Part shown: piece after piece, positions 4,597-57,376 of the stretch
Numbering within the stretch: the stretch's first letter is position 1
How the letters are laid out: each line of letters starts with the position of its first letter
DNA from: Streptomyces sp. PR69
Lineage (GTDB): Bacteria > Actinomycetota > Actinomycetes > Streptomycetales > Streptomycetaceae
Length of the DNA stretch: 64,000 bases
Reading direction: 5' to 3'
Assembly (NCBI RefSeq): GCF_026420845.1
Contig: NZ_JAOWCB010000006.1
Coordinates: 62,001-126,000, forward strand
Notes under the pieces: model-generated
What the model was told of the DNA's origin: nothing
The model's input: the letters and a program-made list of their open reading frames with translations, nothing else
The model's database searches: none
Program-made: the position numbers and the translations under genes

Positions 4597-4683
4597 CCCT
4601 CAGGCCGCCGCCCGGCGGTCACGGCGCGGGCGGGCCGCCTCGCGGGGCCCCGGTTGCCGGGCGGTGGACGCGGACGCGCCATG

Positions 4684-5616: not shown

Positions 5617-5681
5617 CGCGGGCCCTCGGGCAGGAGGAGGGCGCGGGCGGCGAGGGCCGCGGAGGTCTCGGTGTTCGGCAC
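5613..5681 (-). CDS. 22-residue peptide ORF coupled to the methyltransferase
   Basis: GTG 5681 is preceded by GAGGAG (5689-5694) seven bases upstream, one of the best ribosome sites in the cluster. The peptide begins MPNTETSAALAARALLL and ends PEGPR. Its TGA overlaps the methyltransferase GTG in a GTGA junction. It could be a leader peptide that couples translation, a very small structural peptide, or the remains of the original methyltransferase N-terminus after a frameshift. No Cys, Ser-rich core or recognised RiPP leader motif is seen, so precursor status is not supported. Confidence 0.45.
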   Translation of the reverse strand: MPNTETSAALAARALLLPEGPR

Positions 5682-5739
5682 GGCGATGCTCCTCGGTGCG
5701 TACGGCTCCGGACCGGGTGCCGGCCCGGATCGGGAGTGG

Positions 5740-7008
5740 TCAGGGCGTTGGGGCCGGCAGGCGGAATTCGTCCGGGACCGCGGCGCAGACGGCGTCCAGA
5801 GTGGCGAGCGCCTCCTCGGCCTCCTCATCCGTGGCGACCAGCGGCGGGAGCAGCCGGAGCACCTCCGGCCGCCCCAGGCAAGGAGAGACCACGAGGCCGT
5901 TGCGCCCCAGTTCCATCAGGACGTCTCCGGCCACGGCGGGGGTGGTGAACTCCACGCCCCACAGCAGTCCCCGGCCGCGTACCTCCGTGATCAGGGCGGG
6001 GTGACGCCGGACGAGGCGCGCCAGGCCGGAGGCGAACAGCTCCGCCAGCCGCTCGCCGCGTGGCGCGAGTTCCTCGACCGCCGTGAGCGCCGCGACGCCG
6101 GCCGCCGCGCCGAGGGGATGACCGGAGAAGGTCGTAGTGTGCACGAACGGGTCGGCGGTCAGCGGCGCGTACAGCTCCGGCGTGGCCACCACGGCGGACA
6201 GGGGCTGCACACCGCCGCCGAGGGCCTTGCCGAGCAGCACGGCGTCGGGCCGTACCCCGGCGTCGGCGCTGACCAGCCGGGGGCCGCATCTGCGCAGTCC
6301 GGTCTGGATCTCATCGGCTATCAGGAAGGCGCCGTGCTCGTGCGCCGCGTCCGCGAGGGCCCTCAGGAACCCGGGCTCCAGCGGCCGTACGCCGCCCTCC
6401 CCCTGGACGGGCTCCACGAGGACGGCCGCCACCTCGCCATCCGCGAACGCGCCGGGTATCGCGGACGTGTCCGCCGCGATGTGTCTCACACCGCCGAGCA
6501 ACGGTTCGAGGGAGCGGCGGTAGCGCGCGTTCCAGGTCGCCGCGAGGGCGCCGAGGGACTTGCCGTGGTAGGCGCCCTCGACGGCGAGGACGCGGGTGCG
6601 GCCCGTGGCAAGGCGCGCGAGCTTGAGCGCCGCCTCGACGGCGTCGCAGCCGTTCAGTCCCAGCCACACCTTCGTCAGCCGCTGCGGGTCGGCCCAGGCC
6701 GCCAGTGCCGCCGCGAGATCGGCGGTCGCGCGGTTGCCCAGGACGCGGGTGGACACCGGCATCGTGTCCAGTTCACGGCGCACCGCGGCGACGACGGCGG
6801 GGTGGCGCTGTCCGAGCAGGGTCACCGCATAGCTTCCGAAGTCGAGCGCGCTGCGGCCGTCGGAGAGCCGCAGGCGGGCCCCCTCGCCGCTCATCTCGAT
6901 CGCACCGGAGCCATTCATGCCGTAGACGAGGGCCAGTTGGGGCGAGAGGTGTCTGCGCGTCGCGGCGAGCGCACTGCGGGCGGCCTCGTTCCTGGCGGTC
7001 GCGGTCAT
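5740..7008 (-). CDS. Class III pyridoxal-phosphate aminotransferase
   Basis: The 422-residue length and motif order fit the ornithine/4-aminobutyrate aminotransferase family: LNGCDAVEAALKLAR near 120, AYHGKSLGALAATWN, the cofactor-stacking aspartate in FLIADEIQTGLRR, and the Schiff-base lysine in VLLGKALGGGVQPLSAV, followed by HTTTFSGHPL. ATG 7008 has GAGGAGAGGA upstream. Enzymes of this class transaminate aldehydes or ketones using amino acids as donor, and in antibiotic clusters they often install amines on cyclitols or sugars. It is the first gene of the minus-strand arm, divergent from the nucleotidyltransferase operon. Confidence 0.9.
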   Translation of the reverse strand: MTATARNEAARSALAATRRHLSPQLALVYGMNGSGAIEMSGEGARLRLSDGRSALDFGSYAVTLLGQRHPAVVAAVRRELDTMPVSTRVLGNRATADLAAALAAWADPQRLTKVWLGLNGCDAVEAALKLARLATGRTRVLAVEGAYHGKSLGALAATWNARYRRSLEPLLGGVRHIAADTSAIPGAFADGEVAAVLVEPVQGEGGVRPLEPGFLRALADAAHEHGAFLIADEIQTGLRRCGPRLVSADAGVRPDAVLLGKALGGGVQPLSAVVATPELYAPLTADPFVHTTTFSGHPLGAAAGVAALTAVEELAPRGERLAELFASGLARLVRRHPALITEVRGRGLLWGVEFTTPAVAGDVLMELGRNGLVVSPCLGRPEVLRLLPPLVATDEEAEEALATLDAVCAAVPDEFRLPAPTP

Positions 7009-7180
7009 CGGGACCGTCCTCTCCTCGTCCGGCAGTTGTGAACACGCGCCGCTCCCGCGCCGCTCCCGGGCCGCGCGCCCGCGCCGCGTGCGAACGCGCC
7101 GTGCAGCCGTGCAGCCGTGCAGCCCCGCCCCGAACCGTTCGGTCAACTTGTAGTCCTCCTTCCCCGCTGGTGAGAAGTCG

Positions 7181-7199
7181 CGTTCCGGCTGCCGGAACG
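7181..7199. promoter_or_regulatory. Palindrome TTCCG-N5-CGGAA in the divergent aminotransferase/nucleotidyltransferase promoter
   Basis: The intergenic region 7009-7298 holds a perfect 8-3-8 inverted repeat, CGTTCCGG, CTG, CCGGAACG. The inner TTCCG-N5-CGGAA form recurs at 23215-23229 in the same cluster. IclR regulators generally bind short palindromes of TTCC-N5-GGAA type, so both are candidate sites for the cluster regulator (inference). A short tandem repeat of GTGCAGCC units lies at about 7097-7122. Confidence 0.5.
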
Positions 7200-7298
7200 T
7201 TCGTTGATCCGGACCTGCGGCGCTTGAGAGGCTGCGCGAGATTGCGGGATCACCGGGCTCCCAAGACCACCGGGGAGACAGCCCGGGAAGACACCGCA

Positions 7299-8378
7299 AT
7301 GCCGCCGTCCGCATCCGAAAGGTGCACCGACCGCATGGAGACCACGTCAGCCAGTGCCGTCGCCTTCCCGGATTCCGGCACCCTGGAGAAGCGTCTCGAC
7401 CTGTTCCTGGAACAGCGCGGAATGAGCAGGGACGCGGTGCGCAAGGAAGCCGACCAGGGCATGGGGGCACCGGCGCTCGCGGTCGTCGCCGGATCGGTGC
7501 TCGCCGGTTTCGGCAACCACCGAAGCGACCTCGACCTGCTTGTGCTCGTGGAGAACGACAGGCTCACCCGCTTCCCCATCCAGTCCCACGAACACGGCAC
7601 GCTCATCGACGTCAACATCCGCCGGGCGAGCGCCGTCCGGGACACCACGGCCGAACTGGCCGCGGGTCCCTGGCCCCGGTTCAGCACGGTCACCGAGGAC
7701 GCCTGGAACCACCGGCGTCGCGCCCTCAACACCGCGAACCGGCTGGCGCTCGGACTGCCGCTGATCGCCTCGCCGCCGTGGCACGACTGGCACGCGCGGC
7801 TGCGCCGCCCGTGGCTGGCAAAGGCCGTGGAGCAGTGGTGGACGGTGGAGGCGCACCGGCTCGCTCAGGCCGCCCGCTGGCTGCTCGACGCCAAGCCCAT
7901 GGCAGCGGCGGTCCGCGCCCGGGAGGCCGTGGTCGCCGCGCTCAATGCGCGGGCCGCGGCGGCCGGGCAGCTGTACTTTGCGGCGAAGTGGGTGGGCGAG
8001 AAGCTCAAGGCGCTCGGGGATGACGAGGGCCTGGCCCTGCTCCGCGACACGCTGACGCCTCCGCTCGCGCCGCGCGAACGGGTCCCGCGGTGCCTCGCCG
8101 CCGTCGAGCGGCTGATCGGCGAGCCCGCACCCCTGCACGCGGTGCTGCGCTGGTCCACCGGCATCGGAACGACGGTGCTGGACGACCGCACGGTCGTCGA
8201 CCGCTGGCAGCTGCGCGCCCTGGAGGTCCCGCGGCGGGACCTGCCGCCCGAGGACGGCAACGCGGTCATCTGGTCGGGCCCGGCCGGCGCCGCTCTCCCG
8301 GACGACCTCCTGCCCCTGTTCGTTCACGACATGGTGTGGCTCGGTGTCGCACACCCCGACCCGGAGGTGCCCGCTTGA
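7299..8378 (+). CDS. Nucleotidyltransferase-fold protein
   Basis: The 359-residue product has the polymerase-beta nucleotidyltransferase signature at about residues 65-85: VAGSVLAGFGNHRSDLDLLV, that is GS, a spacer, then DxD. A third acidic residue is plausible in LIDVNIRRA. The rest is helical and resembles aminoglycoside or sugar nucleotidyltransferases in size, but no subfamily is recognised. ATG 7299 was preferred to ATG 7335 because GGAAG lies eight bases upstream. It overlaps the next gene by four bases, which suggests the two products act together. Likely role: transfer of a nucleotide or phosphate-nucleotide onto a pathway intermediate (inference). Confidence 0.7.
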   Translation: MPPSASERCTDRMETTSASAVAFPDSGTLEKRLDLFLEQRGMSRDAVRKEADQGMGAPALAVVAGSVLAGFGNHRSDLDLLVLVENDRLTRFPIQSHEHGTLIDVNIRRASAVRDTTAELAAGPWPRFSTVTEDAWNHRRRALNTANRLALGLPLIASPPWHDWHARLRRPWLAKAVEQWWTVEAHRLAQAARWLLDAKPMAAAVRAREAVVAALNARAAAAGQLYFAAKWVGEKLKALGDDEGLALLRDTLTPPLAPRERVPRCLAAVERLIGEPAPLHAVLRWSTGIGTTVLDDRTVVDRWQLRALEVPRRDLPPEDGNAVIWSGPAGAALPDDLLPLFVHDMVWLGVAHPDPEVPA

Positions 8379-8950
8379 CGCGCCCCAACTCGCGCGCGAC
8401 CGCCGAAGCGCCCCCCGGGAGGCCCCCGGCGCAAGCTGACGCGCCCCCGGCCGACCTGCGGCGGCTGCTCGCCTTCCGCGCTCACGGCGCGGCCCGTCTG
8501 CTGCTCGGCTGCCGGGCCCGCCTGGAGGACATCGAAGGCGCCGTCGCCGCGGGACAGACCGAGGTGGCCGTCCTCATGGCCTATGAGCTGGTGCAGTTCT
8601 CCCTGTCCGTACGCGGGCTGCGCAGCGAGGGCGAACTGAGCTACGGGCGCGACGAGGTGGGGTTTGACCCGTTCGCGGGGGTCCCGGCCGAGGAGGTCGC
8701 GGCCGGGCTGATCCTCGCCGCGGAGGGCCGGGATGCCGTGGGTGAGCGCGGCGAGGAGTGGCTGGACAGGCTCCGCGGTCATCTGCGGGACACCGAGGCG
8801 CTTCTGGGTTACGCCGAGCCGCTGCCCGATGTGCGGTCCGGGAGCGGCCTGATGAAGGGCTTCAAGCTGGCCCGCACCTGGCAGCCGCTGCTGCAGCGTG
8901 TCGGCCTGCCCGACCTGCTGCCGGACGCCTGGACGCGCCGTGCCGACTGA
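8375..8950 (+). CDS. Helical protein of unknown function, partner of the nucleotidyltransferase
   Basis: TTG 8375 overlaps the preceding stop, with GGAGG at 8363-8367 seven bases away. The 191-residue product is predicted almost all-helical (LRRLLAFRAHGAARLLLGCRA, cut here at 20; then VLMAYELVQFSLSVRGL). Position and fold type recall HEPN-like or substrate-binding proteins that accompany minimal nucleotidyltransferases, but the RxxxxH motif of HEPN is not evident and no family is claimed. Overlap with both neighbours indicates one operon. Confidence 0.6.
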   Translation: MTRPNSRATAEAPPGRPPAQADAPPADLRRLLAFRAHGAARLLLGCRARLEDIEGAVAAGQTEVAVLMAYELVQFSLSVRGLRSEGELSYGRDEVGFDPFAGVPAEEVAAGLILAAEGRDAVGERGEEWLDRLRGHLRDTEALLGYAEPLPDVRSGSGLMKGFKLARTWQPLLQRVGLPDLLPDAWTRRAD

Positions 8951-10043
8951 GCCGGGACCGCAGCGCGCCCGCGGCGACCGGACGCCGGCGCTGGCCGTTC
9001 ACTCCGTCAGCAAGCGGTACGGCGGCACGGTGGCTCTCAGGGATGTCTCTCTCGACATCGCCGAGGGCGAGATCACGGGCCTGCTCGGACACAACGGCGC
9101 GGGCAAGACGACCCTGATGTCCCTGGTGGCGGGACTTCTGCGGCCGGACGCGGGGGAGATCGAGGTACGGGGCTTGTCATCCGTCCGCGACCCGCACCGG
9201 GCGCGCCGCGAACTCGGCCTGGCCCCTCAGGAAGTGGGCGTCTATCCGCCGCTGACCGTGCGGCAGAACCTGCGGTTCTTCGCGGAGCTGGCCGGCCTGC
9301 GCGGCCGGGAGGTCCGGCTGCGGACCCAGGAGGTCGCCGAACCGCTCGGGCTGACCGCACTCCTCGACCGCAGGGTCTCCCGGCTCTCCGGAGGCGAACA
9401 GCGGCGCGTGCACACCGCGATGGCCCTGCTGCACCGGCCGAAGCTGCTCCTGCTCGACGAACCCACCGCGGGCGTGGACGTGGAGACCCGGTCCCGGCTC
9501 ATCGCGTTCGTCCGGGAGCTCGCCGCCGCCGGCACGGCCGTCTGCTACTCCACGCACTACCTCGCCGAGGTCGAGGCGCTCGACGCGAGTGTGGCCGTAC
9601 TGGACCACGGCCGCATGATCGCGCGCGGCACGCTTCGGGAGCTGGTGCGCAGCCACGGCGACAGCGCCGTGGAGCTGGTCTTCTCCGGCAGTCCGCCCTC
9701 GCTGCGGCTGCCCTGGCCGGTGACCCGCGAGGCGGGCGTGCTGCGCGTCCGGGTCGAGCAGCCGCACCTGGCGGCCCCCGAAGTGCTCGCGGCCCTGGGC
9801 GACTCGGCCCGGAGCCTGGTCAACCTGCGGGTGGTACAGCCCAGTCTGGAGACCGTCTTCCTGCGCCTGACCGGGCGTCGGTACGGGGACGGGCCGGACC
9901 CCGCCGGCGCCGCGGCGGCGGACGCCGCGGCCCCGGCGCCGGTCGCGCGGGGTGCGGGAACCTCCGGGGAGGGACGGAACGGAGCGCCGGGCGACGGACC
10001 GCCGCCCGGCGAACAGGCCATCGAGGCGGGACGCCATGGGTGA
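8940..10043 (+). CDS. ABC transporter ATP-binding protein, DrrA-type
   Basis: The 367-residue protein has Walker A GLLGHNGAGKTTLMS, Q-loop region LAPQEVGVYPPLTV, signature RLSGGEQRRVHTAM, Walker B LLLLDEPTAGVD and switch region CYSTHYLAEVEAL. A C-terminal extension of about 120 residues ending in an Ala/Pro/Gly-rich tail is typical of drug-export ATPases of the DrrA group. GTG 8940 overlaps the previous gene, and the 3' end overlaps the permease by eight bases. With that permease it should export the cluster product or an intermediate. Confidence 0.93.
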   Translation: MPTEPGPQRARGDRTPALAVHSVSKRYGGTVALRDVSLDIAEGEITGLLGHNGAGKTTLMSLVAGLLRPDAGEIEVRGLSSVRDPHRARRELGLAPQEVGVYPPLTVRQNLRFFAELAGLRGREVRLRTQEVAEPLGLTALLDRRVSRLSGGEQRRVHTAMALLHRPKLLLLDEPTAGVDVETRSRLIAFVRELAAAGTAVCYSTHYLAEVEALDASVAVLDHGRMIARGTLRELVRSHGDSAVELVFSGSPPSLRLPWPVTREAGVLRVRVEQPHLAAPEVLAALGDSARSLVNLRVVQPSLETVFLRLTGRRYGDGPDPAGAAAADAAAPAPVARGAGTSGEGRNGAPGDGPPPGEQAIEAGRHG

Positions 10044-10818
10044 CGGTTCACTGGGCCGGATCGCCGCGCTGATCCGGCAGGACGCCAGACTCCTGGTCCG
10101 CGATCCCGCTCCGCTGATCGTCCGTACGGTCATGCCGCTGCTCATCATGGGCTTTATGCAGCCGCTGTTCCGCGCGGCGCTGCGGGCCGACGACGTGCAC
10201 AACGCCACCGGAGCCGAACAGGGCGTGCCCGGCATGGCGGTGATGTTCCTGTTCTTCCTCGTGACCACCGTGGGCTTCGCGATGTTCCGTGAGCACGGCT
10301 GGAACACCTGGGACCGGCTGCGAGCCGGACCCGCGCGGCCGTTTGAGCTGGTGGCCGGCCGGCTGGCGGTGCCGCTGGCGGTCGCGGTGGTCCAGCTCGC
10401 CGTGGTCTTCGCCGCGGGCGGGCTGCTGTTCGGGCTGCGGGTGCGCGGCTCGTACCTGGCGCTGGCCGTGGTGGGCGTGCCACTCGCGCTGTGCGTGGTG
10501 ATGGTCGGCATGGCGCTGGTGGCGCTGTGCCGCACCATCTCCCAGCTCAGTGTCTTCGCCAACCTCCTCGCCCTGCTCTTCGCCGGGCTCGGCGGCGCGC
10601 TGACCCCGCAGTCCGCGCTGCCGGACTGGGCCCGCCCGCTCGCTCCCGGGGTGCCCAGCTACTGGGCGATGCGCGGGTTCTCCACCGTCATCCTCGACGG
10701 CGGCGGCGTGGGCGCGGTCCTGCTTCCGGCCGGCATGCTGTGCGCGTTCGCGGCGGGTCTCACCGCCGTGACCCTGGTCTTCTTCCGAACCGACCACCGC
10801 AAGCTCTCCTGGTCCTGA
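10036..10818 (+). CDS. ABC-2 type transporter permease
   Basis: The 260-residue protein has about six hydrophobic segments, including MAVMFLFFLVTTVGFAMF and LAVPLAVAVVQLAVVFAAGG, in the ABC-2 layout of drug and polysaccharide exporters, followed by the family's C-terminal PGVPSYWAMRGFSTVI. It overlaps the ATPase gene, so the pair forms the exporter. The next gene follows after 78 bases and may be on the same transcript. Confidence 0.9.
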   Translation: MGDGSLGRIAALIRQDARLLVRDPAPLIVRTVMPLLIMGFMQPLFRAALRADDVHNATGAEQGVPGMAVMFLFFLVTTVGFAMFREHGWNTWDRLRAGPARPFELVAGRLAVPLAVAVVQLAVVFAAGGLLFGLRVRGSYLALAVVGVPLALCVVMVGMALVALCRTISQLSVFANLLALLFAGLGGALTPQSALPDWARPLAPGVPSYWAMRGFSTVILDGGGVGAVLLPAGMLCAFAAGLTAVTLVFFRTDHRKLSWS

Positions 10819-10896
10819 AGCGCGCCATCGGCCCCGCGTCATGCCCGCGACATCGGCCCCGCGACATCGACAGTGCGCCATCAGAGAGGAACAGCC

Positions 10897-11550
10897 ATGC
10901 CCGCCGCCGTGGTCTTCGACTGCTTCGACACACTCGTCATGTCCCGGCCGCTGCCGGGCCCCGAGGAGTTCACCGCCTGCCTCGCCGATGTGCTCGCCCT
11001 GGACTCGCGGTCCGCGGGCGAGGTCGTGCACACGGTGTTCACCGCCGTGTTCGCGGCGATGTCGGATCGGTCCGCGCTCCAGCCGTCCACCATGAGCCTG
11101 CTGGACGCGACCCTGCGGGAGCGGGGCAAGCCGCGGAAGAAGGCTGACCTGGACAAGGCGTTGTGGCACGCCCTCGGCTGCGCGGACCCCGGCCAGTACG
11201 CGCTGTGCGAACCGGCGGCGGACGCGATGCGCCGGACCGCCGCCGCCGGCCACACCGTCCGGCTGCTGTCCAACTGCTATCTGCCGGGCAACCTGATGCG
11301 CAGGCTGCTCCACCAGTTGAAAGTTCCCGACGTGTACGACCGGACGCTGTTCACCGCGGACGGAGGGCCGAAGAAACCCGATCCCCGCGCGTTCCGGCTG
11401 ATCGGGGAAGGCGACTTCGAGCGGCGCGTGATGGTCGGCGACTCCGAGGAGATCGACATCGCGCCGGCCGCCGCCCTCGGCTGGAACACCGTGCGCGTCG
11501 ATCCCGGCGCTCCCGATCTGACGGAACTCCTCTCCCTGCTGGAACTGTGA
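10897..11550 (+). CDS. HAD-superfamily hydrolase, probable phosphatase
   Basis: The 217-residue protein has HAD motif I as VVFDCFDTLVM, motif II serine in RLLSNCY, motif III lysine in GPKKPDPRAF and motif IV acid in MVGDSEEIDIAPA. The motif I form FDxFDTL is common in HAD proteins with a nucleophilic first Asp. AGAGAGGAAC lies ahead of ATG 10897. It is one of three phosphatase-type enzymes in the cluster and probably removes a phosphate from a sugar or cyclitol phosphate. The next gene starts after 196 bases that probably hold a new promoter. Confidence 0.85.
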   Translation: MPAAVVFDCFDTLVMSRPLPGPEEFTACLADVLALDSRSAGEVVHTVFTAVFAAMSDRSALQPSTMSLLDATLRERGKPRKKADLDKALWHALGCADPGQYALCEPAADAMRRTAAAGHTVRLLSNCYLPGNLMRRLLHQLKVPDVYDRTLFTADGGPKKPDPRAFRLIGEGDFERRVMVGDSEEIDIAPAAALGWNTVRVDPGAPDLTELLSLLEL

Positions 11551-48515: not shown

Positions 48516-48525
48516 GCACGTCGGC

Positions 48526-48852
48526 TCAGGCGCTTTCGGTCGGCAGCCCCGCCTCCACCCAGTCCTGGATGCCCTCGCGGTACTTGCGGACGTTCGTGTA
48601 GCCGAGCGCCGTGAGCCGGTCGGCGACCTGGCCGCTGTTAGGGCAGGCGGGGTTGGAGCAGTACGTGACGATCGCGGCGTCGCGGTCGGGCAGCAGCGCG
48701 GCCGCCTGCCCGTCCACGTCACCCGGAACGATCGGCACGGCTCCGGGCAGGTGCTGCTTCGCGTAGTACTCGCCGCCCAGGGCGTCGACGACGGTCACGG
48801 TCCCGGCCTTTACCGCCGCGGCCAGCTCGTCTCGGGTGATCAGTGCGGTCAT
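48526..48852 (-). CDS. Rhodanese-domain protein
   Basis: The 108-residue single-domain protein has VVDALGGEYYAKQHLPGAVP and the active-site cysteine loop IVTYCSNPACPNSGQVADRL with the persulfide-carrying Cys in YCSNPACPNS. It could transfer sulfur or act as a sulfur-stress or arsenate-like enzyme. It is divergent from a TetR regulator, with a perfect palindrome between them that probably controls both. Confidence 0.9.
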   Translation of the reverse strand: MTALITRDELAAAVKAGTVTVVDALGGEYYAKQHLPGAVPIVPGDVDGQAAALLPDRDAAIVTYCSNPACPNSGQVADRLTALGYTNVRKYREGIQDWVEAGLPTESA

Positions 48853-48873
48853 GTCACTGCCTCCAAGGTAAAC

Positions 48874-48919
48874 GGACTATAGTCCTCTTGTGGCCCAGAA
48901 CAGTAACGGACCGCAGTCC
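48874..48919. promoter_or_regulatory. Two GGAC-N4-GTCC palindromes, candidate TetR operators
   Basis: GGACTATAGTCC (48874-48885) lies between the divergent rhodanese and TetR starts; GGACCGCAGTCC (48908-48919) lies within the first TetR codons. Both share GGAC-N4-GTCC and are 34 bases apart centre to centre. The first overlaps the expected promoter, with TATAGT as a possible -10. Confidence 0.7.
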
Positions 48920-49513
48920 GATTCCGCAATGCCCCTGGAACTGCTGCGCACCCCGCCCCCCAAGGAGCGCGCCGACGCCGCCCGCAACCGGGCCGCCGTA
49001 CTCGAAGCCGCCGCACGGCTCTTCGCCGAGCACGGCGTGGAGGCGGTGTCCATGGACCAGATCGCGGCGGCGGCGGGCGTCGGCAAGGGCACGCTGTTCC
49101 GTCGCTTCGGCGACAAGTCGGGGCTCGCCGTCGCCCTGCTGGACGCCCGCGAGCGGGCGCTCCAGGAGGCGGTTCTGCACGGACCGCCCCCGCTGGGCCC
49201 GGGAGCCGCGGCCGAGGCCCGGCTGACCGCGTTTCTCGACGCCTACCTCGACTATCTGCTTGAGCATCTGCCGCTGGTCCGGATGTCCGAGACCGCGAGC
49301 CCCGGCGCGCGCTACCGCATCGGCGCGTACCGCTTCTGGCACCGCCATCTGGCGATCCTGCTGGCGGGCGCCCCCGACCCCGACGCCGCCGCGCACACCC
49401 TGCTCGCCCCCCTCGCGGCCGAACACATCACCGCGCTCCTCCCCGAAGTGGGCGAGCCCCGCCTCCGCGCCGCCGCCCTCCGCCTCGCCCGCGCCGCGCT
49501 CGCCACTCCCTAA
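48890..49513 (+). CDS. TetR-family regulator
   Basis: The 207-residue protein has the TetR helix-turn-helix at about residues 35-80: RAAVLEAAARLFAEHGVEAV then MDQIAAAAGVGKGTLFRRFG. GTG 48890 is five bases downstream of the palindrome; no ribosome site is present, so it may be leaderless. It probably represses itself and the rhodanese. Its stop overlaps the convergent SRPBCC gene by four bases. Confidence 0.92.
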   Translation: MAQNSNGPQSDSAMPLELLRTPPPKERADAARNRAAVLEAAARLFAEHGVEAVSMDQIAAAAGVGKGTLFRRFGDKSGLAVALLDARERALQEAVLHGPPPLGPGAAAEARLTAFLDAYLDYLLEHLPLVRMSETASPGARYRIGAYRFWHRHLAILLAGAPDPDAAAHTLLAPLAAEHITALLPEVGEPRLRAAALRLARAALATP

Positions 49514-49953
49514 GCCGGACCGCCGCCGCCCGCGCCCCGCCGCTCCAGCAGCTCCTTCAGCGCGGCCAGGTCCTTGCGGTTCGCCCGCCGCATCGCCACG
49601 CCGGTCAGCCTGTTCCCGCGGCCGCGGTTCCGCAGCGTCATACGCGTACGGCCCTTGCCCACCGGCTCCCAGGTGTACGTCGTCTCCATCGGGAAGGGCC
49701 CCTCGGCCGTCCGCATGACCAGCCGCCGGCCGGGCTCGTACTCGACGATCTCGTACGTGTACGCCAGCCGCCGCCCCAGGAACCGCGCCACGAACGCGAC
49801 CCGCGCACCGACCTCCACAGCCGACGCAGACTGCCACTCCACGGAACGGATGTTGACATACCACTCGGGCGCGTTCGACGGATCGGCCGCGTACGCGGCG
49901 ACCTCCGCACACGGCACGTCGATCAGCACCTCGGTCCGCACATCCACGGCCAT
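49510..49953 (-). CDS. SRPBCC-fold protein
   Basis: The 147-residue protein begins MAVDVRTEVLIDVPCAEVAA and continues DPSNAPEWYVNIRSVEW, RLAYTYEIVEYEPGRRLVM and TTYTWEPVGKGRTRMTLRNR, the helix-grip layout of polyketide-cyclase-like/AHSA1-like proteins. Ligand unknown. The C-terminus is Gly-rich. Confidence 0.85.
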   Translation of the reverse strand: MAVDVRTEVLIDVPCAEVAAYAADPSNAPEWYVNIRSVEWQSASAVEVGARVAFVARFLGRRLAYTYEIVEYEPGRRLVMRTAEGPFPMETTYTWEPVGKGRTRMTLRNRGRGNRLTGVAMRRANRKDLAALKELLERRGAGGGGPA

Positions 49954-50008
49954 ACTCCGAGGCTAGCCCCGACGCTCAAGCCCCGCGCCCCAAGCGAAAT
50001 CGGCCGTG

Positions 50009-50327
50009 CTACGCAACGCCGATGACAGCAGCGAGCTCACGCACACCGCATGCCCGCGGATGCCTGGACCGCAGATCGGCCACGATGGACCGGATGGCAG
50101 GGCGGTCACGAACCTCCGCCGGAGACACACATGCCGCCGACAGCAGCTCAGCCGCGGTTTGCTCAGGATTGCCGCGCTGCCACCACGCGCGGGCTAGACC
50201 GTTCGGCGATGACGAGTTCGTTGCGCTCGGCCCGCACCTCCGCCAGCTGCTGGGCCAGATGCTCTTCGAGTTCGTCCAGTTACGCGCGCCGCGCGGTGAT
50301 CCGTTCCAGCAACTCGGGATCCAGCAT
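50009..50327 (-). pseudogene. Decayed helical protein gene
   Basis: ATG 50327 opens MLDPELLERITARRA, then an in-frame TAA, then LDELEEHLAQQLAEVRAERN with coiled-coil character; the homologous-looking continuation LARAWWQRGNPEQTAAELLS sits in another frame, so a single-base frameshift follows. The coiled-coil start resembles small proteins often found beside transposases in Streptomyces. It is probably a remnant, next to the MerR gene on the other strand. Confidence 0.55.
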
Positions 50328-50376
50328 GGGCCCGATCGCAGAAGCTGTCCGGCGAGCGCGAACAGGAACCAGCGAC

Positions 50377-50407
50377 TTGTCCCTCCCCCAAGGGCAGAGG
50401 GCACAGT
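50377..50407 (+). promoter_or_regulatory. MerR-type promoter with 19-bp spacer
   Basis: TTGTCC (50377-50382) and CACAGT (50402-50407) are separated by 19 bases, the long spacing that MerR regulators correct by twisting DNA. The spacer holds a dyad CCCT...AGGG (about 50381-50401). The start GTG 50414 is only six bases after the -10, so the transcript is leaderless and probably autoregulated. Confidence 0.6.
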
Positions 50408-50413
50408 GGTCCC

Positions 50414-51268
50414 GTGCAAGAGGACTTGATCACCATTGGCGAGCTCGCCACCAGGACCAGGCTCAGCCTCAAGGCCCTGCGGCTCTACGGGGACCGAGGG
50501 CTGCTGCCTCCGGCCCGGGTCGATCCGCGGACCGGCTTCCGCCGCTACGGTCTCGCCCAGGTTGAACGGGCCCGCCGTATCGCGCTGCTGCGTGCCACCG
50601 GCATGTCCCTGACGCGGATCGCGGAGGTGCTCGATTCGAGCGGTGAGAAGCCGGTGCGGCTGCTCACCTCGTACTGGCGAGAACAGGAGTCTGTGCACGT
50701 GGCTCGCCGGGCCGCGGTGGGCTATGCCCGAGAGGTCCTGACCGGAAGAAGCCCGACCATGTACGAGGTTGCCGAGCGCGACGTGCCAGAGCAGAAAGTC
50801 CTGTTCATCCAGCGCCACGTGACCGCCGCAGACCTGCCCGGCTTCCTCGCGGACTCGAGCGAGCTGCTCTTCTCCCACCTGCGGCAGGCGGGAGCGGGCT
50901 TGTCCGGACCGCTCTTCGCCGTCTACCACGGCCTGGTGAGCGAGGACTCCGACGGCCCGGTCGAGATCTGCGTTCCAACCCAGAGCGCAGATGTCGAACC
51001 GGCCGGCCGGATCGGGCTACGCATCGAGCCCGCGCACCGCGAGGCGTACACCGCCTTGACGAAGCGGCACGAGGGCTACTCGGCGATGGCTGCCGCCCAT
51101 GACGCCGTCGGCGCATGGCTCGCCGAGCACGGATACGCCGTCAGCGCCTCCAATCGAGAGGTGTACTACCCGAACTGGGCGACCGCCGAGCCGGGCGAGC
51201 ACGTGGCCGACGTCGCAATACCCTTCCGCCCGGGCTCGATTTCCGACCTCGAAGAAGTCAGCCGCTGA
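50414..51268 (+). CDS. MerR-family regulator with GyrI-like ligand domain
   Basis: The 284-residue protein has the MerR winged helix at residues 5-75 (ITIGELATRTRLSLKALRLY, DPRTGFRRYGLAQVERARRI), a coiled-coil hinge and a C-terminal effector domain resembling GyrI/BltR multidrug-binding modules (PIRLxx-like blocks: PVEICVPTQSADVEPAGRI and EVYYPNW). It probably activates an efflux or detoxification gene on drug binding. No obvious target gene remains next to it, only a truncated coding fragment. Confidence 0.88.
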   Translation: MQEDLITIGELATRTRLSLKALRLYGDRGLLPPARVDPRTGFRRYGLAQVERARRIALLRATGMSLTRIAEVLDSSGEKPVRLLTSYWREQESVHVARRAAVGYAREVLTGRSPTMYEVAERDVPEQKVLFIQRHVTAADLPGFLADSSELLFSHLRQAGAGLSGPLFAVYHGLVSEDSDGPVEICVPTQSADVEPAGRIGLRIEPAHREAYTALTKRHEGYSAMAAAHDAVGAWLAEHGYAVSASNREVYYPNWATAEPGEHVADVAIPFRPGSISDLEEVSR

Positions 51269-51302
51269 CAGACGATCTACTCCGCAGACTGCCACCACTG
51301 AC

Positions 51303-51527
51303 CTGCGTGAGCACCTCGGAAGACCGTCATACCAGCCCCTTGACCTGCGTCTTCAAGTTGGCGGAGGCTCCCTGGAGCACATCCCGGAGGTCGAGTTCAA
51401 GTACGACGGCTCGGTCGAGCGGACGGCACGGATCATCGCAGACAACGGCTTCGCGGTGGACTGGAAGCTGTGGGAGCGCGACTATGCCCAGTGCGGCCCG
51501 TGCCGCCCGGGCGAGAACTGCCACTGA
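51303..51527 (+). pseudogene. 3' fragment of an unidentified gene
   Basis: An open frame without ATG, GTG or TTG start encodes LREHLGRPSYQPLDLRLQVG, PEVEFKYDGSVERTARIIAD and ends DYAQCGPCRPGENCH, with good codon bias. A strong terminator follows 11 bases after the stop, so this was once the end of a real gene. The 5' part appears lost at the junction behind the MerR gene. The parent family is not recognised. Confidence 0.5.
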
Positions 51528-51537
51528 GCAACCCCTC

Positions 51538-51576
51538 CTGCGGGCCGATGGCACGAGCTGTCCCATCGGCCCGCAG
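51538..51576 (+). terminator. Strong hairpin terminator
   Basis: CTGCGGGCCGATGG (51538-51551) pairs perfectly with CCATCGGCCCGCAG (51563-51576) around an 11-base loop. It follows the gene fragment ending at 51527. There is no U-run, as usual for Streptomyces terminators. Confidence 0.8.
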
Positions 51577-51690
51577 GCCACACGGGTGAAACGGCCCAAT
51601 CCCGCCGTGGCCTGTGCGACGCATGAGTACGGTGTCCAGTCCGATGGCCGGACCCGGAGGACGTGGGCACTCTGCTGGTGCGCGCCCGCA

Positions 51691-51746
51691 CCCCCGATCG
51701 CGTGTGAGGGAGCCGTCCGGGGCTCAAGTTTCGGGCTTCGAGCGGC
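51691..51746. repeat. Left copy of a perfect 56-bp direct repeat
   Basis: These 56 bases, starting CCCCCGATCGCGTGTGAGGG and ending GGGCTTCGAGCGGC, recur without a change at 56252-56307. The two copies enclose exactly four complete genes. Reading GAT CGC GTG TGA inside the copy closes an upstream frame with no good start, which suggests it was once the 3' end of a gene. A run of ten C residues lies shortly after, at about 51758-51770. Confidence 0.9.
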
Positions 51747-51849
51747 GCTGGCGGGCACCCCCCCCCCAGCCCGACGCCGCCGCGAGCCCGCCCGCCGCGC
51801 ATGGGTCTCCTCGTAATGGACGGCGTGCTCTGATCGACGCGGAGACTGG

Positions 51850-53220
51850 CTACGCGAGGGCGCCGACTCGGTGAGCGAGCGCCCGTACGCCAGGGAGGGT
51901 GCGGTCATGCCGCATCAGGTTCGCGGCCATGGTCTGGACCGAGCCGCGGCGGACCTCCTGTGGCGCTGCTTGCTCGGCGGCCAGAAGTGCCCGGTAGCAG
52001 CGGTCGGGTTTGCCCCATCGGTCGAAGGCTCGGGCGACGTCGATCCAGTATCGGGCTTGGCGTTCGGTGGTGGGCAGGGCGGCGGGATCGACGCGGCGTG
52101 CGTGCTCGATGGCTTGGCCCGCGTCGCCAAGCAGGTGGCTGATCGAGACCTGGTGGAGGAGCACCTGGCTGGGGCCGAAGACGGTGCCGCGTCGCAATGC
52201 GTCGTGGCCGAGTTGCCCGGCGGTGGCTTCGGCTTCGGCGATGAGGGTGTGTGCGGTGTGCCGGTCGCCTTGCTTCGCCGCGGTGTAGGCGGCGGTGGCG
52301 TACAGGTTGCCCTGGACGGAGAGCCGTTCGGTTGCGTCGGTGGTTCGGTCGGCGGTCAGCTGCTGGGCGGCGGTGACGGCGACGTCGGTGGCGCGGGCGT
52401 AGTGGCCTTGGCGGCGCCACGCGGAGGAGACCATGCGGTGGGCTTCGGCGACAGTGAGGGCGTCCGCGCCGCCAAGTGCCGCGGTGAGGGCCCGGTCGGC
52501 GGTGACAGCGGCCAGGCCATCTTCGCCGAGCTTGATGAACAGGCGGGTTGCGGTGGTGTACAGCTCGGCGACTGCGGTCGCCGCCTGCGCCGAGTGCCCG
52601 TGGGTGCCGAGGGCCTGGGCGAGGGCGATCCGGGCCGGGAGTGCGCGGGCGAGGGTGTCGTAACGGCAGGCGCTGAAGTCGGCTCGGGAGGCGTTCACCG
52701 CTGCGGTGACAGCTGACGAGGTGGGGTCCGGGGTGAGGAGATGGACGTGCTGCCGGTGCAGCAGGAGGTCTTCCAGACCGGACAGGCTCGGCTGTGCCGG
52801 TGCGTGGGCGGCGGCCGGCGGTCCGAGGACCGCGCTGGTGGTGGCTCCGGCCAGTCCTGCCAGGAGCTTTCGGCGTCGCACCGGGTCGTCTCCCTCTTCG
52901 CCGAACTGAGTCTGTGTACCCACCCTAGTGGCGTCGGTTCGGTCCGAGGCGGCTCGCTGCTGTGGTGGCGCGAGGCCGAGCAAGTGCCGAGGGATGTCGA
53001 GGCAGGCGGCGAGGTTCTGGAGCAGCAGCACGTCGCGCATGGGCTGCTTGCCGCGTTCCATCCGGGACAGCGAGGCAGCGGTATAGCCAACCTGCTTGCC
53101 CAGTTCGGCGAGCGTGACGTCGGCCGCGCGGCGGGCTAACCGGACGATCGCGCCGGCATCGCGGCGGGCGAGCGCGTCACGCATAGCCGTGGAACGCCAG
53201 AGCGGATGGGTGTTGTCCAC
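51850..53220 (-). CDS. XRE-family regulator with TPR-like C-terminal domain
   Basis: The 456-residue protein has a helix-turn-helix at about residues 25-80 (ADVTLAELGKQVGYTAASLS, RMERGKQPMRDVLLLQNLAA), an RRRKLLAGLAGATTSA stretch that resembles a Tat motif though internal, then about 300 residues of helical TPR-like repeats (AEAHRMVSSAWRRQGHYARA, YTAAKQGDRHTAHTLIAEAE). GTG 53220 has GGAGGTGA at good distance. Streptomyces have many such regulators; their ligands are mostly peptides or unknown. Divergent from the epimerase, it probably controls this four-gene cassette. Confidence 0.88.
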   Translation of the reverse strand: MDNTHPLWRSTAMRDALARRDAGAIVRLARRAADVTLAELGKQVGYTAASLSRMERGKQPMRDVLLLQNLAACLDIPRHLLGLAPPQQRAASDRTDATRVGTQTQFGEEGDDPVRRRKLLAGLAGATTSAVLGPPAAAHAPAQPSLSGLEDLLLHRQHVHLLTPDPTSSAVTAAVNASRADFSACRYDTLARALPARIALAQALGTHGHSAQAATAVAELYTTATRLFIKLGEDGLAAVTADRALTAALGGADALTVAEAHRMVSSAWRRQGHYARATDVAVTAAQQLTADRTTDATERLSVQGNLYATAAYTAAKQGDRHTAHTLIAEAEATAGQLGHDALRRGTVFGPSQVLLHQVSISHLLGDAGQAIEHARRVDPAALPTTERQARYWIDVARAFDRWGKPDRCYRALLAAEQAAPQEVRRGSVQTMAANLMRHDRTLPGVRALAHRVGALA

Positions 53221-53430
53221 GACTCACCTCCTGCGGGGCTCATTGTCCGGCCAAACCGCCTTGCAGCACGAGAAGTTGCAAGCCGTTTACGCCCCGTGCA
53301 AACCGTGTGCGCGCCGAGAGGCTGCCCCTCCCTTCGCCTGGCGGGCTGCGGTGTCCTCGTGACCGCGACGGCGCGCACCAAAGCGGGCCGCGCCGGTGAC
53401 ACTGCACACTCACCACGGCATGGAGGCAGC

Positions 53431-54534
53431 GTGCACGACATCCAGTTGAACGAACTCGCCGACCGGACTGTGCTGGTCACCGGCGGAGCCGGGCTGATCG
53501 GCAGCCGTATCGCCGCCTGCCTGCGCCAGGCGGGAGCCCGGCCGATCCTGCTGTGCACGCTGGAGGCGTACTCCCGCAACACCTACCGCGACCTCTTCGG
53601 GATTGACGCCACCGACCCGGCTGTCATCGTCGGCAACGTCCAGAACCCGGACGTGGTCAGGAAGGCGGTGGCCGAATCCGATTACGTGATCCACGCCGCC
53701 GCGCTCGCCGATGTCGCCGCCTGCACCCGCAAGCCCATGGCGGCGATCCACACCAACATCACCGGCACCCAGGTACTGCTCGACGCGGTGGCCGCCTGCG
53801 AGCGGACCCGTCGGCTCGTCTTCGTCTCCTCCGCCAGCGTCTACGGCAACGGCAACCCGGAGGACTGGGCACGCCCGTGCGAGGAGTACCGGACAGTGCG
53901 CGAGCTGCTGAAAGCCGTCTATGGGCGGGTCCCGCCGCGGTTCCATGAGCACGCGCAACTGCGGCCGATGTCGGTGTACGCCAACACCAAGGCGTGGGGC
54001 GAGACGCAGACCGCTCTTACCCTGAGCGCCGTGGGCGCCTCGTACACGGTCGTGCGGTACTTCTCCGTCTACGGAGAGCCGCAGGTCATCAAGGAGGACA
54101 GCCACTCGTGGGTGGTCGCCTGGTTCGCCACCCGCGCCGCCCTGGGGCTGCCCCTGCACCTCAACGGCGGCGGCCACCAGATCCGGGACCTGGTCCACGT
54201 CGAGGATATCGCCGCTGCCACTGTCCGGGCCCTTGTCGCCCCGCAGGCCCACAACGAGACGGTCAACATCGGCACCGGCACCCCCACCAGCATCCGCACC
54301 GTGGCCGAGCTGGTCGCCAAGCAGTACCCGGGCACGCGTTTCGTGGAGACGCCGATGCCGCCCGGTGACCCGCTCGGCGGCTACGCGGCCACCCACCGCA
54401 TGGAAGCGGTGCTCGGCTGGCGGCCGACGATCACCGTCAAGGAGGGGGTGGCTCGCTACGCGGACTGGCTGGACAAGACGCCCGGGGCGATTCCCTCGTG
54501 GCTGCGGGCCGAGTCCGGGGCCGCGACTGCCTGA
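53431..54534 (+). CDS. NAD-dependent nucleotide-sugar epimerase/dehydratase
   Basis: The 367-residue extended SDR has TVLVTGGAGLIGSRIAACL, YVIHAAALADVAAC, RLVFVSSASVYGNG, Y183 and K187 in SVYANTKAWGETQ, and RYFSVYGEPQVIKED. The blocks fit NDP-sugar 4-epimerases or 4,6-dehydratase-like enzymes. GGAGG precedes GTG 53431. Its TGA abuts the TGA of the convergent glycosyltransferase in the palindrome TGATCA, so the two genes end with no gap. Confidence 0.9.
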   Translation: MHDIQLNELADRTVLVTGGAGLIGSRIAACLRQAGARPILLCTLEAYSRNTYRDLFGIDATDPAVIVGNVQNPDVVRKAVAESDYVIHAAALADVAACTRKPMAAIHTNITGTQVLLDAVAACERTRRLVFVSSASVYGNGNPEDWARPCEEYRTVRELLKAVYGRVPPRFHEHAQLRPMSVYANTKAWGETQTALTLSAVGASYTVVRYFSVYGEPQVIKEDSHSWVVAWFATRAALGLPLHLNGGGHQIRDLVHVEDIAAATVRALVAPQAHNETVNIGTGTPTSIRTVAELVAKQYPGTRFVETPMPPGDPLGGYAATHRMEAVLGWRPTITVKEGVARYADWLDKTPGAIPSWLRAESGAATA

Positions 54535-55410
54535 TCAGACGACCGGTGGGCGGCCCAGGCAGGTCATCCGCCACACCGTTGACCAGCGCATCGGCCGACG
54601 GGGCGGGCACGGCGTGCGCAGGCCCTCGGCGAACCCACCGAACCAGGCCCTCAGTCCCGCCCCAGATCGGGTGCGGGCCATGGCCATCACCGTCCAGACA
54701 GCTAGGTAGACAGGGACGAGGAGGGCGGGAAGGTGCCGCTTGGCCAGCCAGACCCGGTTACGGGCGACCATGCGGTGGAAGACCGCGTGCCGGGTCGGCG
54801 ACGTCCACGGATGCTGGAGCACCAGCTCCGGCTCGTAGAGCACCTTCCAGCCCGCGTCCAGTGCCCGCCAGGCCAGGTCGGTCTCCTCGTGCGCGTAGAA
54901 GAACGGCTCGGGCCACCCACCGATCTGGTCCAGCATCCGCATGGACAGCCCGTGCCCGCCGCCGAGGAACGTCGTCACCAGCCCGCCCCGCATCGGATCC
55001 GCCGCCCGCAGGCGCGGTACGTGACGCCGCTGGGTGCGGCCTTGCTCGTCGGCGATGCGGAAACCGACCACGCCAAGCTGCTGGTCCGCCGCGTACAGCT
55101 CAGCGAGCCGGGTGAACACCTCCGGGCTGATCAGCAGGCCGTCATCGTCCAGGTCCACCACGACATCGACATCCCCGAACTCCCGCAGCCGGGCCAGCGC
55201 AGCGTTTCTGCCTCCGGCCACCCCCAGGTTCTCCGGCAGTTCGACACGGGCCACCCACTCCGGCAGGGACGGCAGCGGCGAGCCGTTGCCCACGACCACG
55301 ACCCGCGTCGCAGGCGTGTTCTGCCCGGCGACCGACGCAAGAAGGTCGGCCAGCTCGGCGGGCCGCGTTCCCATGGTCAAGATGGCGACGCCTACGCGCG
55401 GGTGACGCAC
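54535..55410 (-). CDS. Family 2-like glycosyltransferase
   Basis: The 291-residue protein has VAILTMGTRPAELADLLASV, VVVVGNGSPLPSLPE, the metal-binding acidic stretch VDVVVDLDDDGLLISPEVF, FLGGGHGLSMRMLDQIGG and the catalytic-base region FFYAHEETDLAWRALDAG. A single hydrophobic helix near the C-terminus (LPALLVPVYLAVWTVMAMAR) may anchor it at the membrane. It likely transfers a sugar made with help of the epimerase. GTG 55410 was taken from the open frame; the ribosome site is weak. Confidence 0.88.
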   Translation of the reverse strand: MRHPRVGVAILTMGTRPAELADLLASVAGQNTPATRVVVVGNGSPLPSLPEWVARVELPENLGVAGGRNAALARLREFGDVDVVVDLDDDGLLISPEVFTRLAELYAADQQLGVVGFRIADEQGRTQRRHVPRLRAADPMRGGLVTTFLGGGHGLSMRMLDQIGGWPEPFFYAHEETDLAWRALDAGWKVLYEPELVLQHPWTSPTRHAVFHRMVARNRVWLAKRHLPALLVPVYLAVWTVMAMARTRSGAGLRAWFGGFAEGLRTPCPPRRPMRWSTVWRMTCLGRPPVV

Positions 55411-55497
55411 GGATGAACACTCCGTTCCTCGGCTCCGGTGCCGGTGATGCTAGCCGCCCGGGGAACGGCCACCCGACCACCCAACGGAAGGCCACCG

Positions 55498-56268
55498 ATG
55501 CCCACCATCCGCCTCGGCGACTACCTCACCGCCCCCACCAGCGGATTGCTGGACGGCACCCCCTACGAGCACCTGGAGAAGGCCGAGCTGGCCGACTTCC
55601 TCGCAGGCTGGGACGACTGGCACCGCCAAGCCCTCGCCCGGCTTACGCACCGCATCCACCCCACCGCACAGATCCACCCGACTGCCATCATCGGCGACGA
55701 CGTGATCACCGGCCCCCGCGTACGCGTGTGGGAGTTCTCCACCGTCCGCGCCGGCTCCGTGCTCTGCGCCGGCGTCTCGGTCGGCTTCAACTGCGAGGTC
55801 ACCCGCTCCTTCCTCGGCGAGTGCGCCGTACTCGGCCACCGCGTCGGTATTAACCGCACCCTCGTCGGCGCCGACGCCCACCTGTCCGCCAACCTGACCG
55901 TCGCGGCCATCAGCATGTGGAGCCTCCACATGAGCAACCCTGAACGGGAGATCATGCTGCGTACCTCCGACGGCCTCTACCGCTGTGTCACACCGCAGTT
56001 CGGCGCCCTGATCGGCGACCGGGTCCAAACCGGCAACAGCATCAGCCTCGGCCCCGGCCTCGCCCTCGGCCGCGACTGCCGGATAGCCAGCGGCGTCACC
56101 CTCGCCGCACGCACCATCCCTGACCACAGTGTCATCACCGCCCCTCACACTTCTGATGTCCACGTCCGACAGCGGCCCGCACAGCGCGGGAGGACCAACG
56201 CGGGGCATGCCGCCACGGGCTCTCCACCCCACCAGCCGCGGCCATTGGCAGCCCCCGATCGCGTGTGA
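55498..56268 (+). CDS. Left-handed beta-helix acyltransferase-like protein
   Basis: The 256-residue protein has hexapeptide repeats from about residue 55: IHPTAQIHPTAIIGDDVITG, then VRVWEFSTVRAGSVLCAGVS, and later LALGRDCRIASGVTLAARTI. This is the LbH fold of acyl- and acetyltransferases. GGAAGG precedes ATG 55498. The last 30 residues (AQRGRTNAGHAATG onward) do not look like the family, and the last codons and stop lie inside the right 56-bp repeat, so the natural end was probably replaced at the repeat junction. Confidence 0.85.
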   Translation: MPTIRLGDYLTAPTSGLLDGTPYEHLEKAELADFLAGWDDWHRQALARLTHRIHPTAQIHPTAIIGDDVITGPRVRVWEFSTVRAGSVLCAGVSVGFNCEVTRSFLGECAVLGHRVGINRTLVGADAHLSANLTVAAISMWSLHMSNPEREIMLRTSDGLYRCVTPQFGALIGDRVQTGNSISLGPGLALGRDCRIASGVTLAARTIPDHSVITAPHTSDVHVRQRPAQRGRTNAGHAATGSPPHQPRPLAAPDRV

Positions 56269-56307
56269 GGGAGCCGTCCGGGGCTCAAGTTTCGGGCTTC
56301 GAGCGGC
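56252..56307. repeat. Right copy of the perfect 56-bp direct repeat
   Basis: Identical to 51691-51746. It supplies the terminal codons and TGA of the beta-helix protein gene. The copies are 4561 bases apart start to start and in the same orientation. No integrase, transposase or inverted repeats accompany them, so the unit could be lost or gained by homologous or site-specific recombination between the copies. Confidence 0.9.
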
Positions 56308-56424
56308 TTCTTCAAGGAATGGGCGGAGGGCCCCAACCCGCCCTCCCACCCTGCCGAGTTGGCTTTCCGCGTTCGAGTTGCGACGGAGAGTGAAGAAGCT
56401 CTAGCGTGCCCGATATACGAAACA

Positions 56425-56457
56425 ACCCCCGCCCGGTGCGGTAACACCTGCGGGGGT
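56425..56457. terminator. Hairpin between cassette and next gene
   Basis: ACCCCCGC (56425-56432) pairs with GCGGGGGT (56450-56457) around a 17-base loop. It lies 31 bases before the next start codon, so it may terminate upstream transcription or act as a leader structure of the downstream gene. Confidence 0.55.
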
Positions 56458-56488
56458 CTGACCTACGAGATCGTCAGGACCCGATCCC

Positions 56489-57376
56489 ATGGCTGACAGC
56501 CAGCTTAGTGCCACGTTCCTGCCCTCGCATCCCGCCCCGCACCCGATGGCCAGTCCGGGTTACGGAAAGCGGTCCGCGCCTGACCAACGGCCCCGCAGCG
56601 GGAACGACTTCGCGCATCTGCGACCGCGTGACGCGGCGATCGCGGATCACATCGACCGGGCCCCGGACGGGGCCGACATCTCGGTGAAGACGCTGGCCAA
56701 AGTGCTGCCGTACGGGCAGTGCGCGCTGCGGACCTCGCTCAACAGACTCCAGCAGGCCGGGCACTTGAGGCGCGGCATCGAACATCTCACCGGTGGCGGA
56801 GGGCGGTTGTGGGTCACCCGAACGTGGTTCTCCCGCACCGCACGCGACGATGACTGGTGGGCCGCCTTCCAGCGCGGCGACATCCCGGACGCGCGGCCCC
56901 GGCCCACCCGCTCACGGGCCTTCATCCTGCTGGCGGCCCTCGGGCGGGAGAACCCGATGATGTCGCTGTCGAAGGCCGACTGCGAGGCGCTCGCACCGCT
57001 GGCGGGCGAGTGGCTGGCGCGGGGCGCGAGCGAGGCGGATGTGCGGCGGGCGCTGACCGCCGGGCTGCCGCCGGTGGTGCACTGCCCGGCGGCGCTCGCC
57101 CGCACCCGCCTCATCGGCAAGCTGCCGCCGGAGCCCGCGGAGATCCGCCCGCCCCTGCGCATCCTCGAATGCGGCACCTGCGGGGCCCCGGCGCGCCCGG
57201 AGGCCCTCGCGGGCGGCGACTGCGCCGGCTGCCGCGGCGAGCCCGCCACCGCCCCCGTACGGCCCGCGTCGCCTCTCCCGGCCGCGCAGGTCCGCGCCCA
57301 CGCGGCGGAAGCCCGCGCCGCAGCCGCCCGGGCTCCCCGAGCGGACTTCGCCGAAGGCGGCGGGCAGACAGGCTGA
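56489..57376 (+). CDS. Winged-helix-like protein with C-terminal zinc-ribbon motif
   Basis: The 295-residue protein has a central helix-turn-helix-like part (RDAAIADHIDRAPDGADISV, KTLAKVLPYGQCALRTSLNR, RLWVTRTWF) similar to replication- or MarR-like winged helices common in Streptomyces, then a helical part and a CGTCGAPARPEALAGGDCAGC (first 20: CGTCGAPARPEALAGGDCAG) four-cysteine knuckle. The C-terminal tail is Ala-rich. Function unknown, DNA binding likely. Confidence 0.75.
   Translation: MADSQLSATFLPSHPAPHPMASPGYGKRSAPDQRPRSGNDFAHLRPRDAAIADHIDRAPDGADISVKTLAKVLPYGQCALRTSLNRLQQAGHLRRGIEHLTGGGGRLWVTRTWFSRTARDDDWWAAFQRGDIPDARPRPTRSRAFILLAALGRENPMMSLSKADCEALAPLAGEWLARGASEADVRRALTAGLPPVVHCPAALARTRLIGKLPPEPAEIRPPLRILECGTCGAPARPEALAGGDCAGCRGEPATAPVRPASPLPAAQVRAHAAEARAAAARAPRADFAEGGGQTG

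Follow-up and report, generated by a model that had tools for sequence, protein, structure and literature searches.

How does a block of genes that carries no recombinase come to lie between two perfect direct repeats? The question is raised by a locus of Streptomyces sp. PR69 in which a regulator gene and three sugar-modification genes are flanked by two copies of the same 56-bp sequence. The locus belongs to a stretch of 64,000 nucleotides (contig NZ_JAOWCB010000006.1, positions 62,001 to 126,000), which is called the window here and whose numbering is used for the locus throughout (Table 1). The entry of gene blocks without a recombinase or flanking homology into bacterial chromosomes is largely an open question. 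The analysis described below leads to the reading that the repeats are probably local target DNA that was duplicated when the block was inserted, as in the process known as insertion with long target duplication. An initial annotation of the window had taken the repeats as the marks of a mobile unit. This stands insofar as the block does move, as judged from its neighbourhoods and silent sites, and repeats occur at several of its insertion places, but the movement does not appear to proceed via a shared recognition site.

The two copies are identical in 56 of 56 bases, take the same orientation, and start 4561 bp apart. No exact direct repeat in the window is longer, and the maximum in simulated windows (n = 20, first-order Markov) is 16–20 bp, so that the perfect repeats reported initially are real and far beyond chance. 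Both copies lie within one long contig and have different flanks. The source genome (6.57 Mb, a draft in 104 contigs) contains exactly two copies of the 56-mer, and with up to three mismatches allowed the only carrier among 295 genomes of the genus is this genome itself. Neither the plasmid nor the phage searches gave a real match (the best plasmid match was 24 nt), and the same holds for an exact search of viral contigs with a 30-mer taken from the repeat. Scans of the window for tRNAs and Rfam families returned nothing, and the 56-mer is thus not the end of a known RNA gene; its single-strand fold is not better than that of shuffled sequences. A role of the 56-mer as a site belonging to the element itself is therefore not supported, as none of the other genomes and collections searched yielded it and the repeats at other insertions differ in sequence.

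The origin of the repeated DNA is indicated by the gene to the right of the block, a chromosomal gene for a helix-turn-helix (HTH) protein. In 19 relatives with this gene, homology to its leader begins between 56272 and 56378, and in 16 of the 19 it begins at or before 56307. The right part of the 56-mer (approximately 30–36 bp) is therefore native leader of the HTH gene, while the left part (approximately 20 bp) lies outside the leader match. In one relative (L072), the leader follows the DUF397 gene after 12 bp, which most simply means that all of 48516 to ~56275 was added in the lineage of the window. Another relative (G006) has a homolog of the gene at 49510 (PF10604) adjoining the HTH gene and lacks the block; most simply, the additions to this interval would have come in several steps. 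Among the relatives, the gap between the DUF397 and HTH genes (48516–56275 in the window) differs in length, and this interval resembles a hot spot for insertions.

Related blocks are found on plasmids and chromosomes of Streptomyces. The left-handed beta-helix (LbH) protein of the block was detected in 22 of 392 genomes of the genus at E ≤ 1e-30, including the source genome. A scan of genome contigs with an alignment of the TPR regulator yielded seven loci, five of which are near full length with 85–91% identity; the other two (L126 and L127) are weak partial matches and were dropped. The closest relatives form a group of seven loci, termed clade A, which comprises the window, genome G272, S. 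albus B-1811 (G392), S. pinistramenti (G373), S. sp. CC53 (G266), S. sp. TRM49041, and S. benahoarensis (G416). The copies in the six other genomes encode proteins that are 83–92% identical (87–92% for the TPR protein against three relatives) and have different neighbourhoods. The window copy sits in the DUF5753-DUF397...HTH locus, the G272 copy in a resolvase-bearing unit, the G373 copy next to P450 and cation-efflux genes, and the TRM49041 copy next to GNAT and LacI genes. The G266 locus (L120) has decayed: epimerase, glycosyltransferase, and most of the LbH gene are deleted, while the full-length TPR gene and the end of the LbH gene are kept. No flank is shared among the clade-A loci compared, window included, beyond short matches, and the edges of the block differ by tens of base pairs between loci. 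In the wider comparison of gene order and flanks, 30 loci were used, three of which duplicate a counted genome, leaving 27 distinct loci (window excluded). Common flanking DNA was found for one pair only, which consists of two sister plasmids (comparison at the nucleotide level, 2.6–7 kb outward, pieces below 300 bp left out). At fourfold-degenerate sites, the block genes are more similar than gyrB in nine of nine genome pairs (71.1–90.8% versus 57.5–71.4%); in the pair G000–G272 the values are 81.5–86.9% versus 60.2%. Because identity at these sites exceeds that of gyrB, the comparison indicates that the block genes were transferred horizontally between Streptomyces species, and together with the different neighbourhoods it shows the block to be mobile. 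As an outcome that would speak against mobility, the initial annotation had named the absence of the 56-mer elsewhere together with a gene order fixed in distant species. The 56-mer is indeed absent from all other genomes and collections searched, but the gene order is only partly fixed: the glycosyltransferase gene stands between the epimerase and LbH genes in 20 of the 27 loci and elsewhere in six, and the remaining locus is decayed.

Direct repeats flank block insertions at five unrelated places. Four of them are 41, 56, 68, and ~330 bp long, and the fifth, which is decayed, measures 1.1 kb or more. Their sequences are all different, and a neighbouring host gene or its leader can be recognised in the repeated DNA of every insertion except that in G272. 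There, a 68-bp pair with 98.5% identity surrounds the block. In G373 the pair consists of five collinear pieces (87–98% identity) that span ~1.1 kb to the left and 0.7 kb to the right of the block, as expected for a long duplication that later lost parts. Both copies contain DNA from the 5′ ends of the P450 and cation-efflux genes (of the latter, the first codons) together with the spacer, which means that these genes were adjacent before the block entered. On a plasmid of S. sp. NBC_00536, the block is enclosed by a pair of 41/41 identical bases. The right copy is situated within a hydrolase gene whose 3′ end is 127 bp away, and the left copy abuts the block, an arrangement that would fit a longer duplication with a trimmed left copy. 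In plasmid pSMg1-2 (L026, 6494–15966) and a plasmid of S. goshikiensis (L027, 4177–12800), the related block has an extra glycosyltransferase gene and splits a type I-E CRISPR region. The order is left array, leader, truncated cas2 3′ end, block, second array, leader, and complete cas2. The array leader and the cas2 3′ end form the repeated pair of 327–330 bp with 95–97% identity, the left copy with the truncated cas2 being next to the block. Since they are sisters, the two plasmids represent a single insertion, which was counted apart from the tests that follow.

The association of block and repeats was compared with control intervals in two ways. When pairs of at least 40 bp with E ≤ 1e-8 within 700 bp of both block ends were scored in clade A, three of five loci were positive (window, G272, and G373; not G392 and TRM49041) versus 3 of 1804 sliding controls, all three of which fall in one locus. 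A second test with pairs of at least 35 bp and E ≤ 1e-6, again within 700 bp, covered 28 loci (the 30 loci without the CRISPR plasmids). Four were positive (window, G272, G373, and the NBC_00536 plasmid) versus 0 of 1435 controls. These intervals were as long as the block, were shifted by 1.5 kb or more within the same loci, and are overlapping and not independent. With a limit of 3 kb instead of 700 bp, the figures are 5 of 28 loci versus 15 of 836 control intervals. A 57-bp pair in locus L114, 0.1 kb to the left and 2.8 kb to the right of the block, was not counted under the 700-bp limit. A duplicated contig end in G392 turned out to be a gene of which another contig carries a near copy, and was rejected as a repeat around the block; a like search for S. 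benahoarensis yielded, apart from itself, weak matches only.

Insertion with long target duplication was reportedly first described by Nobusato et al. in 2000 for restriction-modification genes of Helicobacter pylori. Several features known from that system are present here. The repeats are tens to hundreds of base pairs long, consist of target DNA, and vary in length and sequence, and the window copy has neither a recognisable recombinase nor terminal inverted repeats (the G272 copy, by comparison, lies inside a Tn3-like unit). Three papers (PMC1643837, PMC3031569, PMC3154945) describe the same combination of a block at variable places and long direct repeats of target DNA whose length changes from insertion to insertion. 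The systems differ in their cargo, which is a sugar-modification block here, and in their hosts, which are Streptomyces with Ku wherever tested. The kind of insertion is thus known, and what is new is the cargo and the host group; long target duplication together with Streptomyces was not found in the open-licence literature. The present block shows that variable direct repeats can also betray insertions of this kind when the cargo is not a restriction-modification system.

The likeliest, though unproven, route of insertion is break repair by end joining or template switching, by analogy with known repair events. A donor fragment, which could stem from a plasmid as related blocks occur there, would be joined by end joining between offset breaks on two chromosome copies. 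Alternatively, the donor would be copied in by template switching during replication, which would then resume upstream of the point of departure. Either route would leave a direct repeat of whatever lay between the two points, and the repeats could later permit precise deletion or amplification through homologous recombination. Ku was found in four of four genomes tested. For Streptomyces ambofaciens, PMC5869714 describes five insertions at breaks that had been repaired, with lengths from 30 bp to 18.8 kb, and its authors speculate that end joining might also take in exogenous DNA. The likeness lies in DNA from elsewhere being joined into a Streptomyces chromosome; the difference is that the S. 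ambofaciens inserts are endogenous and that the passages concerned describe deletions and inserts, not target duplications. With one block, several independent insertions in Streptomyces, and this experimental break-repair system at hand, long target duplication would become testable. A unit between direct repeats that could be deleted or amplified by recombination also resembles the amplifiable units of DNA (AUD) of Streptomyces, given as 14.2–32.8 kb in the same source. There is a slim chance that the block promotes its own insertion through a product, e.g. the TPR regulator or a small fifth protein (see below), which would cause or attract chromosome breaks or stalled forks. If so, the block would be a recombinase-free mobile element with a long arbitrary target duplication as its signature.

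Integrative elements with attachment cores, such as pSAM2, have direct repeats of around this length at both ends, and a circle could have integrated here in a similar manner, by site-specific or homologous (Campbell-type) recombination. The 56-mer would then be an attachment core or short homology, with the recombinase acting in trans. Identical direct repeats of this length are the expected trace of such an event and the window site taken alone is compatible with it, but the block differs from pSAM2-type elements by lacking an integrase and a constant core. No integrase gene was found among the block genes, and Pfam and family-profile searches of the block proteins recognised no recombinase family at all, in line with the initial annotation. 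Moreover, the 56-mer is missing from the 294 other genomes, the plasmids, and the phages, and part of it is the leader of a host gene. Given the different sequences and lengths of the repeats at the other insertions, a shared attachment core is not supported, and circle integration is unlikely. A transposon that delivered the block and then lost its ends, leaving the 56-bp repeat as a by-product, is an even weaker candidate. It draws on the insertion sequence (IS) genes near the block in some plasmids and on G272, where the block is contained in a unit of 7.16 kb (L101, reverse complement of 3976–11131). The inverted ends of this unit measure 534 bp (99.6%), a resolvase domain is encoded, and the outer ends are marked by GAGGA, a perfect 5-bp duplication. 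Judged from these sequence features, the unit is a Tn3-like vehicle carrying the block. The window block, however, lacks the terminal inverted repeats with a short target duplication that mark a composite or Tn3-type transposon (the only inverted pair, of 23 nt, is internal to the block), and none of the loci in G373, TRM49041, and S. benahoarensis showed long inverted ends next to the block in self-comparison.

Locus-specific repeats of variable length would equally arise if the block had entered between the copies of a tandem duplication that already existed at the target. PMC2869330 proposes this for transposed genes of Arabidopsis, where flanking direct repeats homologous to the target site are enriched over unmoved controls; the model favoured there is that circles recombine with tandem repeats. 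Arabidopsis shares with the present case the position of moved genes between target-homologous repeats and differs as a eukaryote. Such tandems must, however, have existed at five unrelated loci, and the aligned relatives of the target locus have one leader copy each, albeit in other species; the model is regarded as improbable. An accidental repeat or an assembly fault can hardly account for the locus: the genome is a draft and a C10 run adjoins the left copy, but 56 exact bases on one long contig with different flanks are not explained in this way, and the arrangement recurs at other insertions.

Duplication of target DNA at insertion is thus the preferred reading, and several observations weigh against it. 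In the second test, 24 of 28 loci have no adjacent pair. Within clade A, repeats occur in three of seven loci: none are present in TRM49041 or G392 (683 bp of right flank covered), and none are visible in S. benahoarensis, where a single flank is covered for ~270 bp, or in G266, where the locus is decayed. The G272 repeats lie 113 and 68 bp from the homology edges and inside the Tn3-like unit, and the repeated open reading frame has no Pfam match; as the block rides there in a unit with its own mobility, a single route for all insertions is doubtful. On the CRISPR plasmids, the right copy is 1.7–2.5 kb away from the block, beyond the second array, and the NBC_00536 plasmid requires a later deletion in the left copy under the simple model. 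Neither a natural allele with a single 56-mer nor a match bridging the joined flanks was seen among the matches listed (392 genomes of the genus, with no block-free strain of the same species), nor was the joined P450/cation-efflux site among the matches listed from 120 other genomes. Finally, the break-repair step rests on analogy.

The block was initially described as exactly four complete genes. Four genes are present in the stated order and strands, and the TPR, epimerase, and glycosyltransferase genes look complete; by descent, however, the block has five genes and the LbH gene has lost its stop. In five of the six other clade-A loci (the sixth is decayed), the TPR and epimerase genes are separated by a small fifth gene, which in G272 encodes 80 aa. 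It is absent from the window through a deletion of ~257 bp at ~53389–53391 with GCGGGCC microhomology, which makes the block a five-gene unit by descent within clade A. The LbH stop, present in G272, G392, and S. benahoarensis, was lost in the window by a 1-base deletion, and the triplet itself is also changed. As initially noted, the right repeat now ends the LbH gene, supplying its last four codons and stop (56254–56268). The suggestion that the LbH tail is foreign DNA was dropped for the most part, since the readthrough tail aligns with the block's own 3′ DNA of G272 up to 56237. Relatives of the epimerase and LbH proteins with solved structures are, by sequence, mostly nucleotide-sugar epimerases/dehydratases and sugar acyltransferases; the glycosyltransferase has no solved relative at E ≤ 0.01. 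Judged from gene families alone, the TPR regulator probably controls genes that make an acylated sugar or attach it. A defence-system identity is not claimed, as the PADLOC matches were all weak (several to HTH models and a single one to E1-E2). No description of this block was found in the open-licence literature.

Table 1. Features of the block, its repeats, and the target locus (window positions).
Feature	Position	Strand	Remarks
Left 56-bp copy	51691..51746	+	Read as duplicated target copy; right ~30–36 bp equal the first part of the leader that precedes the gene at 56489
Unassigned DNA, 62 bp	51747..51808	.	Includes C10 run; between left repeat and edge of homology to the G272 sister block (L101 homology from 51809)
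TPR regulator	51850..53220	-	N-terminal XRE-type HTH (PF13560); NsdA family NF053720 weak (45.6 bits, under cut-off of 75)
Deletion scar	53380..53400	.	~257 bp lost with the fifth gene, at GCGGGCC microhomology
NAD-dependent sugar epimerase/dehydratase	53434..54534	+	PF01370, 3.3e-45
Family-2 glycosyltransferase	54535..55410	-	PF00535, 1.3e-7
LbH (hexapeptide) transferase	55498..56268	+	PF00132; natural stop lost, reads into repeat
Unassigned DNA, 14 bp	56238..56251	.	Between G272 homology edge and right repeat
Right 56-bp copy	56252..56307	+	Continues into native leader; leader homology in 19 relatives from 56272 or later
Conserved leader of right-hand HTH gene (target locus)	56276..56488	+	Leader homology in relatives
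Chromosomal HTH gene	56489..57376	+	Follows DUF5753 regulator (47441) in most fetched relatives; where examined also DUF397 gene (48270)

Some minor observations concern the DNA to the left of the block. On the S. melanogenes plasmid (L025, 3337–6373), direct repeats, 105 bp (97%) and 73 bp (96%) long, surround a MerR gene left of the block and not the block itself. In the window, 51371–51527 is what remains of the gene for a small protein conserved in Streptomyces and encodes its C-terminal part (..EHIPEVEFKYDGSVERTA..CGPC..CH); a full-length relative has ~150 aa and no Pfam match. The segments 50199–50375 and 51254–51376 on either side of the MerR gene of the window match many places in Streptomyces genomes, and the matches to 51254–51376 form inverted pairs ~2 kb apart in several genomes.

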